From Chitinispirillum alkaliphilum (GTDB taxonomy: Bacteria > Fibrobacterota > Chitinivibrionia > Chitinivibrionales > Chitinispirillaceae), in contig LDWW01000007.1 in the NCBI GenBank assembly GCA_001045525.1, positions 62,001 through 126,000 of the forward strand: a DNA stretch of 64,000 nt. The letters are read 5' to 3'. The notes beneath the pieces were generated by a model that ran no database searches, had not been told where the DNA came from, and worked only from the letters and a program-made list of their open reading frames with translations. Positions 15,207-17,546 of the stretch are shown here, piece after piece. Positions within the stretch are counted from its first letter, which is position 1. Each line of letters opens with the position of its first letter. A program made the translations under genes and the position numbers.

Positions 15207-15677
15207 CTAACCGATATATTTATTTTCCCCTTCGGTCAACACATCCAGAAACTCCTGAGCCTCATCTACCTGCAGAAGTTTTTCCCTGATCTCTTCCCAG
15301 GTCATAATCCTCGACAGTGAAGAGAGAATTTGAGTGTGTTCTGTTGATGTGTTTACAGGGGAGAACAACATAAAAAGCATATGTACCGGTTGATCATCGA
15401 TCGCGTTGAAATCTATCCCAGTCTTTGATCTGGCGGCAGCCATATAGCAGCGGTCTATTCCTGCTAATCTAACGTGGGGGATAGCTATACCATAACCTAT
15501 CCCAGTGGAGATTTCTGCTTCCCGCTCTAAAATTTTTTGAGTAAGAATTTCCGGATCATGGTTTAGGTTATACAGAGAAGCCATGAAATGGGTCATATCC
15601 CTAAGAACCTCATTTTTATCTGTTTTTTTGATATCAGTGAGTATTGCATTCTTAGGTAACAGATCCTGTAATTTCAA
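15207..15677 (-). CDS. PTS EIIA domain protein (PtsN/fructose-type)
   Basis: A 156-residue single EIIA domain of the fructose/nitrogen (PtsN) type. The phosphorylated histidine is H68 in GYGIAIPHVRL, and the core reads SRSKTGIDFNAIDDQPVHMLFMLFSP. Such free-standing EIIA proteins act as phosphorylation-controlled regulators rather than sugar carriers. The start is a TTG: AAAGGATG lies at good spacing ahead of it, and the nearest ATG in another frame hits a stop after three codons. It is last in a leftward series behind a small membrane protein and an EIIA-diadenylate cyclase fusion, which suggests a shared regulatory function. Confidence 0.88.
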   Translation of the reverse strand: MKLQDLLPKNAILTDIKKTDKNEVLRDMTHFMASLYNLNHDPEILTQKILEREAEISTGIGYGIAIPHVRLAGIDRCYMAAARSKTGIDFNAIDDQPVHMLFMLFSPVNTSTEHTQILSSLSRIMTWEEIREKLLQVDEAQEFLDVLTEGENKYIG

Positions 15678-15727: not shown

Positions 15728-15940
15728 CTATTTTTTTGACTCATTTCTCTGTATGGCAAGGAATATTCTCCCCAGTATATACAGGGCCAAACCAAATATC
15801 GCTACCCCAATTGCAATGTTTGGTACATAACCCCCCATAGGTCTGGTCTGCATAAGGGTAATAACACCAATAAGTGCTAACAGAAACCCGGACATCATAA
15901 CACCCAATGCTCTTTTTTTCAGAAAAGGAATAATTTGCAT
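15728..15940 (-). CDS. small two-helix membrane protein
   Basis: About 70 residues beginning MQIIPFLKKRALGVM, with two hydrophobic segments (about residues 13-29 and 39-60), a positively charged N terminus and a charged tail QRNESKK. The family is not recognised. The start is fixed by GGGGAG a few bases ahead of the ATG; the open frame extends 36 codons further upstream but without a ribosome site. It sits between two EIIA-domain genes transcribed the same way, with gaps of about 50 and 100 bases, so a partnership with the diadenylate cyclase as a membrane anchor is conceivable but unproven. Confidence 0.6.
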   Translation of the reverse strand: MQIIPFLKKRALGVMMSGFLLALIGVITLMQTRPMGGYVPNIAIGVAIFGLALYILGRIFLAIQRNESKK

Positions 15941-16044: not shown

Positions 16045-17361
16045 TCAAAAATGCATTATCTGCTTACCATCCTTAAACACACTGATTCTCCGGGTTGATT
16101 CAGAGAGTGCTATGCTCAATGCACTTGTACATGAACTGATATTTGCTGCTGCAGTATGGCGGGCACCTAATCCCTTGGGGACAAATTCAGAATCACTTTC
16201 TGCCTTTATAAATGCTCCGGAGGTAACTATCACACCATCACCCCTGATCACAAAAGCTCCGTCAATTTTGGAAAATTCCTTTATCGTAGCTTTCAAGCCG
16301 GGATCAAGCACATTACGGTTCTCTTCTTTATACCCCCCGAAAGGATTCACCACCATCTGTTGACAGGATTTCAGTACTTTTTCAGAATTTCCCAATACAA
16401 AAAGCGTGCCTACAGGTTTCCCTTCCCGACCCTCTGCTGCAAGTTCACTTGTGATCTGGAGCATTCGTGCAAAAACCTGCTGCTGCAAATCTATCGGTCT
16501 GGGCTTTTTTCCTATGGTGAAAAAGAACCTGTAATCCTTTAAATTGGTCAGTATTATGGTATCCAACAGATTCTCATCCGGGCTGCCCAGAATACTAAGT
16601 ACCTTCTGATTTCTCTTAAATATCCCCTGAGAAATGAGATATATTAAAACAAGCTCCACCTGATTTGATCTGTTAATGTTTTTGAAAGGAATTTCAATTA
16701 TTTCCTTTACACCCGTGATTTCTTCAGGTAATGAAGAGCGATCAAGGCACACCATGTATATTGGCACTTTTCTCTTCGGTTTAAAGGAAAGTGCTGTTAT
16801 CTCCGATACAGAATGATACACTACTGCAGAAACACCTACATCCTGTGCTAATTCGTATGCTTTTTTTAATATGCTTGATGACACCGGCTCTGTTGTCGCT
16901 GCTGACTTTCTTTTTCGGCCAGCCCCATCTCCTTTGAGAATAGATACTATCTTTTGTGGAGTTGAAGCATTAAGAATGCTGTTGAACCGATCCGGATCAC
17001 TCAGTCTCTTTGCAGTCCACGACAACGCTTCCAGATGATTATTCCCGTCACCAACTATCAATATACAGAGCTTTATTTTCGTATCATCCAGCGAGTCGTA
17101 TAATATCCCTTTTTTACTTAAAGCCACCGCTGCAACTGTTCCCGGAAAACCAGGTATTCTGGCATGGGGCAGAGCTATTGAATCAGATACTCTGGTTGAG
17201 ATAAGGCTTTCACGTTCCTGCACCAATGTCATAATTTCGGTATAATTTGTATGAGGAAATTCATCCGTGATAAGACGTATCAAATGCTTGAACACCTGAT
17301 CCTTTGAATTTGTATTCAGTATCGCAACCCGTTTTTTACTAAAAAGTTCTATATATGACAT
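16045..17361 (-). CDS. PTS EIIA - PK_C-like - diadenylate cyclase fusion protein
   Basis: A 438-residue three-part protein. Residues 1-145 are a fructose/nitrogen-type EIIA domain with phospho-acceptor H66 in SIALPHARIP. Residues about 160-250 form an alpha/beta segment (SSILKKAYELAQDVGVSAVVYHS) resembling the pyruvate kinase C-terminal-like domain that precedes the cyclase in archaeal DacZ. Residues about 320-438 are a DisA_N/DAC domain with D367-G368-A369 and R401-H402-T403, the two motifs that bind ATP and metal; the third motif residue is Thr where RHR is common. The predicted product is cyclic di-AMP. The ATG start follows AGAGG. EIIA phosphorylation may control the cyclase (inference). 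Confidence 0.85.
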   Translation of the reverse strand: MSYIELFSKKRVAILNTNSKDQVFKHLIRLITDEFPHTNYTEIMTLVQERESLISTRVSDSIALPHARIPGFPGTVAAVALSKKGILYDSLDDTKIKLCILIVGDGNNHLEALSWTAKRLSDPDRFNSILNASTPQKIVSILKGDGAGRKRKSAATTEPVSSSILKKAYELAQDVGVSAVVYHSVSEITALSFKPKRKVPIYMVCLDRSSLPEEITGVKEIIEIPFKNINRSNQVELVLIYLISQGIFKRNQKVLSILGSPDENLLDTIILTNLKDYRFFFTIGKKPRPIDLQQQVFARMLQITSELAAEGREGKPVGTLFVLGNSEKVLKSCQQMVVNPFGGYKEENRNVLDPGLKATIKEFSKIDGAFVIRGDGVIVTSGAFIKAESDSEFVPKGLGARHTAAANISSCTSALSIALSESTRRISVFKDGKQIMHF

Positions 17362-17546
17362 TTCAACCTCTGAAATCAACAAGTTATCAACATATCAAAG
17401 CATACCATTTTCCTCAGCTCAATACCATTTAAATATATGCTTTACAGCAATTCTGATGATACCAGGGACCCGGTGGGACACACTAAGTATTAAGAATGTT
17501 CCTATAAAATACTTCTATGCAGCAAAAAAATCATTTATCGGAAAAA

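Follow-up and report, generated by a model that had tools for sequence, protein, structure and literature searches.

EIIA-diadenylate cyclase fusion proteins in Chitinispirillum alkaliphilum and its relatives: a possible point of contact between the phosphotransferase system and cyclic di-AMP

Does the phosphorylation state of the phosphotransferase system (PTS) set the output of cyclic di-AMP (c-di-AMP) in some bacteria? Both systems control potassium in well-studied bacteria, and to our knowledge no input setting the activity of a DacZ-type diadenylate cyclase has been established. The question is raised by a gene of the haloalkaliphilic chitin degrader Chitinispirillum alkaliphilum ACht6-1 (PMC4814513). 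It lies within the 64,000-nucleotide stretch of DNA analysed here (the window) and was originally predicted to encode a diadenylate cyclase (DAC) whose output depends on PTS phosphorylation of a fused EIIA domain. If PTS phosphorylation did set the cyclase rate, the phosphoenolpyruvate (PEP)-driven PTS would be joined with c-di-AMP, and thus two central regulatory systems with each other. Here, the candidate input can be recognised as a phosphorylation switch, and genes for the kinase chain upstream of it are present in the genome, which belongs to a cultured isolate.

Domain architecture and active-site residues

The predicted reading frame is real and lies on the minus strand, with its ATG start codon at 17361 and its stop codon ending at 16045 (Table 1); an in-frame TTG at 17382 is a possible alternative start. 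Protein alignment revealed whole-length orthologues with 81, 61, 59, 53, and 39% identity, and a chance fusion of open reading frames was ruled out by the occurrence of such orthologues in two phyla. Likewise, the proposed succession of an EIIA domain, a PK_C-like segment, and a DAC domain was borne out by Pfam, NCBIfam, and an AlphaFold2 model.

Table 1. Features of the window (positions on the forward strand) and PTS-related genes elsewhere in the genome (locus handle and position)
Feature	Position	Strand	Remarks
EIIA-PK_C-DAC gene, putative diadenylate cyclase (group A)	16045..17361	minus	438 aa, ATG start
PtsN-like EIIA domain	16933..17346	minus	residues 6-143, PF00359 (PTS_EIIA_2) E=1.3e-20
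PK_C-fold / DacZ-type middle domain	16522..16884	minus	about residues 160-280
DAC (diadenylate cyclase) domain	16063..16440	minus	residues 308-433, PF02457 E=9.5e-20
Codon of R50, predicted EIIA active-site arginine	17212..17214	minus	invariant in two family alignments
Codon of H66 (CAT), predicted phosphorylation site	17164..17166	minus	aligns with PtsN histidine
Codon of H109, predicted second active-site histidine	17035..17037	minus	invariant in first six relatives
DGA motif	16255..16263	minus	residues 367-369, invariant in first six relatives
RHT motif (RHR in DisA/CdaA)	16153..16161	minus	residues 401-403, R401 and H402 invariant
70-aa membrane protein	15728..15940	minus	downstream of cyclase gene, same direction
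Stand-alone EIIA	15207..15677	minus	156 aa, TTG start, PF00359 E=2.5e-32
Enzyme I-type genes	L067:6029-8059, L067:8646-10418, L068:8812-10608, L069:7267-8904
Further enzyme I-type genes	L070:7654-9348, L065:4955-7210, L071:6016-7710, L016:2329-3099
Na/H-exchanger proteins with C-terminal EIIA	L072:7072-9276, L005:1453-3363

The two outer domains exceed their Pfam cut-offs of 27 bits each, with 74.3 bits for PF00359 and 70.8 bits for PF02457, and each of the 20 family members scanned has matches to both. Searching the PDB with a profile of the EIIA part retrieved the PtsN structures 3urr (2.3e-15), 4gqx, 2a0j, and 1a6j (7.6e-14), all in the range of 2e-15 to 8e-14; the threshold of the PtsN equivalog model TIGR01419 was missed (50.7 bits against a cut-off of 138.7). 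The DAC domain matched structures of CdaA/DacA.

The middle domain is more divergent. Residues 163-263 matched DacZ_T (PF21756) and PK_C (PF02887) at E=3e-4 to 5e-4, under the curated cut-offs, and DacZ_P (PF21755) only at E=0.014; DacZ_P matched this domain in 16 of the 20 family members scanned (best E=1e-22). For the back half of the protein (residues 213-436), the best NCBIfam match was DacZ (NF041371, E=9.4e-34); its score of 117 bits lies well below the 430 bits that this haloarchaeal equivalog model requires. AlphaFold2 modelled residues 155-438 at low confidence (mean pLDDT 60, middle domain mostly 60-85), and this model could be aligned with the C-terminal domain of pyruvate kinase over 120 residues (Z=13.0, 2.9 Å); we relied on it for PK_C alone, as its DAC part is too uncertain. 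Together, the DacZ match and this alignment support a predicted PK_C fold of the middle domain. A model of the whole protein with six sequences as input (mean pLDDT 52, pTM 0.40) is too poor for reading any domain interface; in a structure search it still retrieved pyruvate kinases, DacA/CdaA, and DisA.

The active-site residues named in the original prediction are present in both outer domains. In the profile alignment, H66 corresponds to the active-site histidine in the “IPH” motif of PtsN and H109 to its second histidine (“HL”). R50, H66, and H109 are invariant across the first six relatives, as are the DGA motif and R401-H402 of the DAC domain. The third residue of the RHR-equivalent motif is Thr in the window protein and varies across the family (Thr, Ala, or others). 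A change of RHR to AAA abolished the activity of DacA from M. tuberculosis (PMC3328451). With RHT in place of RHR, cyclase activity cannot be taken for granted, and the DAC domain might be inactive or make another product, leaving the protein as a nucleotide-binding regulator. We regard this as quite improbable, given that the family shows little or no variation at DGA, R-H, SEST, and the positions around them and that DAC is the most conserved domain, with a mean identity of 78% within the window-type group (group A, see below) compared with 52% for EIIA. Moreover, a search for DAC domains found only two EIIA-DAC proteins in this genome, yet a PgpH-type 7TM-HD phosphodiesterase is encoded there.

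As predicted, genes for a 70-residue membrane protein and a second EIIA follow downstream on the same strand. The membrane protein matches no Pfam family above the cut-off; it is seen in the genus, and the order of cyclase and membrane protein genes is the same in the other Chitinispirillum genome. The stand-alone EIIA has retained its active-site histidine (IPHVR, EHTQ) and adjoins the cyclase gene in two further genomes (G005 and G004), hence in three in all; among group A, this neighbour is kept in the genus of the window and in G004 only. Rfam detected no known RNA or riboswitch in the window, and the counts of promoter and terminator scans were near the shuffled expectation.

PTS and c-di-AMP genes in the genome

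HPr and complete enzyme I (EI) genes, which the predicted control by the PTS presupposes, are both present. A single HPr with an intact site (GIHARPA) is encoded on contig C11. In addition, EI-type N-domains occur eight times in the genome; seven of these belong to full-length proteins, which are mutually 26-35% identical. The active-site motif GGxTSH occurs in three EIs (on contigs C3, C15, and C6), one of which carries a GAF domain as in EI-Ntr. Neither PTS_EIIC (PF02378) nor PTS_IIB (PF02302) was found in the genome; both models match in control genomes. An EIIA for sugar transport was therefore rejected, and the PTS looks regulatory and transporter-less from its gene content, “permease-less” here being based on PF02378 and PF02302 only. 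The eight EI-type genes thus stand beside one HPr and no detected EIIC or EIIB. Another genome of the same family (G002) contains nine HPr-type matches.

Five EIIA matches were found in the genome: the window gene, its EIIA neighbour, the second EIIA-DAC protein, and two Na/H-exchanger proteins, one of which shows a weak EIIA match together with a Usp domain. These exchangers resemble a fused version of the control of an antiporter by PtsN. Judged from its genes, the EIIA outputs of this PTS thus look to be two cation antiporters and two diadenylate cyclases.

With one HPr shared by several EIIAs, and a stand-alone EIIA gene accompanying that of the cyclase in three genomes, the EIIA domain of the cyclase could also be read as a phosphate sink or competitor, or as a relay among PTS proteins such as the neighbouring EIIA and those of the antiporters; c-di-AMP would then be set only by the PK_C domain and ATP. 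This reading leaves unexplained why a covalent fusion to the cyclase has been kept across two phyla, and direct transfer from EIIA to EIIA is not an established step, so that we consider it highly improbable.

Distribution and two groups of paralogs

The survey by phylum, which covered Fibrobacterota and Spirochaetota, found the EIIA-DAC architecture in both. A profile built from six proteins detected EIIA-PK_C-DAC in 34 of the 40 genomes of the order; in other genomes of the phylum, the same profile gave EIIA-only matches among the matches listed. Most of these other genomes have one DAC, located in a protein of about 280 aa according to the DAC search, and the fusion appears from this distribution to have replaced that protein in the order. 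Among 393 evenly drawn genomes of Spirochaetota, 16 showed a strong match, 13 with EIIA and three with PK_C-DAC only; the latter indicate that EIIA is not needed for the core. The statement that known bacterial cyclases have other partners and that archaeal DacZ consists of PK_C-DAC only was too narrow: EIIA-PK_C-DAC is widespread in the order and occurs in spirochaetes, and DacZ-type proteins had already been reported in bacteria by Braun et al. (PMC6741144). In one spirochaete EIIA-DAC of 614 aa (L085:1510-3351), EIIA is separated from the cyclase part by a long insertion rich in Pro, Ser, and Ala.

The genome of C. alkaliphilum harbors a second, divergent EIIA-DAC paralog (group B), split over the ends of contigs C30 and C15. 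The border of C30 cuts off the fourth EIIA match, and near the first base of C15 a second DAC match begins; joined, the two pieces (L004/L007) are in frame and gapless relative to the window protein. The sister genome G005 speaks for their contiguity: there, the homologous gene is whole and flanked by the same two neighbours. Where the window protein has LPHAR, this paralog has LPQAR.

In a tree built from the PK_C-DAC part, with the EIIA columns excluded, group B (33 rows, nearly order-wide) is well supported (97/98), and the six rows of the window type form group A (100/100). Group A and the spirochaete rows join weakly (76/96), and several spirochaete branches are long. The triad R50/H66/H109 is kept in every group A row and in most spirochaete rows. 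H66 is retained by every one of the 13 group A and core spirochaete rows and by 10 of the 33 rows of group B, a contrast with a Fisher p of 2e-5 in a test that ignores relatedness; by parsimony, six changes at this position are needed on the tree. In group B, 20 rows have Gln in its place, two have Lys, and one has Tyr; H109 is mostly Gln in this group. The EIIA domain of group B nevertheless appears to be under purifying selection and not in decay despite the mostly lost histidine: mean identity in the group is 50% for EIIA and 55% for PK_C, and dN/dS of EIIA is about 0.04-0.13 in pairs without H66, a rough value as dS is near saturation in several pairs.

As the EIIA fold persists in most of group B although the histidine is gone, EIIA has at least one role that is independent of phosphorylation, and phosphorylation cannot be its universal role in EIIA-DAC proteins. 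It is conceivable, if rather unlikely, that this holds for the whole family and that EIIA is a structural or docking module for partners such as antiporters or a PTS protein, any phosphorylation being without influence on catalysis. The constrained EIIA of group B and the repeated exchange of H66 for other residues agree with such a role, and the histidine of group A would then reflect partner binding or history. Against it stands the full triad, kept in group A and most spirochaetes although about two thirds of the EIIA positions differ, which is hard to account for without phosphotransfer.

The group B gene also shows a conserved neighbourhood across the order. A gene for a PlsB-like acyltransferase lies upstream in 30 loci and pgi lies close by on the downstream side in 20, with many of the loci truncated (L004/L007, L056, L054, and L053 are among those with this synteny). 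This arrangement hints that c-di-AMP may be connected with both phospholipid synthesis and the sugar phosphates of glycolysis.

Proposed mechanism and comparison with known systems

A possible control of c-di-AMP output by PTS phosphorylation agrees with the data, because R50/H66/H109 are kept in group A and most spirochaetes and HPr and EI are encoded in the genome. Our favoured reading, which we hold to be somewhat the more probable one, is a soluble DacZ-type cyclase whose output would be set by PTS phosphorylation at H66, with a possible metabolite input through PK_C. In detail, phosphate would pass from PEP via EI and HPr to H66 in a transporter-less regulatory PTS. Phosphorylation of H66 would then change the contacts of EIIA with the PK_C/DAC core and thereby shift the cyclase rate, with either sign, and c-di-AMP would be removed by PgpH. 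The PK_C-fold domain may bind a small metabolite as a second input; in pyruvate kinase this fold binds fructose-1,6-bisphosphate, as noted by Braun et al. (PMC6741144). The pgi neighbourhood of group B is consistent with a sugar-phosphate signal and is no proof of it. Group B, mostly with Gln66, may act as the phosphorylation-insensitive partner.

The same PTS appears to feed the EIIA domains on cation/H+ antiporters. In E. coli, unphosphorylated PtsN inhibits the K+/H+ antiporter YcgO (PMC11808508), and potassium is under c-di-AMP control in many bacteria (PMC7900238). Taken together with EIIA domains fused to both antiporters and cyclases, these findings make a cation or osmotic role likely, and the physiology would probably be a coupling of PEP or energy status to K+/Na+ homeostasis, partly through c-di-AMP. 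The architecture, the intact residues, EI/HPr, PgpH, the lack of EIIC and EIIB matches, and the split into two paralogs come from the sequence analysis; catalytic activity, phosphorylation of H66, its effect on activity, and the cation link are what we infer. A more far-reaching version, to which we give somewhat less than even odds, is a direct bridge from the PTS phosphorelay to c-di-AMP, in which a permease-less PTS would govern cation balance through EIIA-antiporters and EIIA-DACs and in which an H66-gated and an H66Q-insensitive cyclase would form a pair. Paralogs with and without the phosphorylatable histidine in one genome offer a natural test of PTS control over c-di-AMP.

On the side of the EIIA domain, the closest solved relatives are PtsN (EIIA-Ntr) proteins, regulatory EIIAs which share the active-site residues; PtsN is free-standing, whereas the EIIA of the window protein is fused to a cyclase. 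The genome resembles PTS-Ntr systems in its GAF-bearing EI, its single HPr, and the lack of detected EIIC and EIIB; however, PTS-Ntr is known in Proteobacteria, far from the phylum studied here.

With respect to the cyclase, DacZ/CdaZ of archaea and some bacteria (PMC6741144; NF041371) likewise has a PK_C-fold domain N-terminal to a C-terminal DAC, to which the window protein adds an N-terminal PtsN-like EIIA. The proteins covered by DacZ_P share the middle domain with most of the family, so that a description of this domain already exists, possibly based on proteins such as those of group B; in comparison, group A forms a divergent branch. As Pfam already holds DacZ_P, we guess that the EIIA-DacZ_P-DAC architecture is probably catalogued in “All DACs in a row” (Galperin 2023). 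Literature text searches, whose scope left out most subscription papers, yielded no paper describing an EIIA-diadenylate cyclase fusion and none in which PTS and c-di-AMP are joined in one polypeptide. Apparently, the papers searched likewise describe neither the division of the paralogs by histidine loss nor the context of a PTS without transporters.

CdaA, DisA, CdaS, and CdaM have a DAC catalytic domain homologous to that of the window protein, which differs from CdaA and DisA in having neither the transmembrane part CdaA_N nor the DNA-binding part of DisA. Membership in CdaA was rejected, with no CdaA_N match at E<=1 and an N-terminus assigned to EIIA by Pfam. Some members of the order encode a single-chain CdaA_N-DAC-YbbR protein of about 490 aa (L096:1542-3029 in G019 and L097:1809-3275 in G014, the former being the one tested with Pfam), which corresponds to CdaA fused to a CdaR-like YbbR domain.
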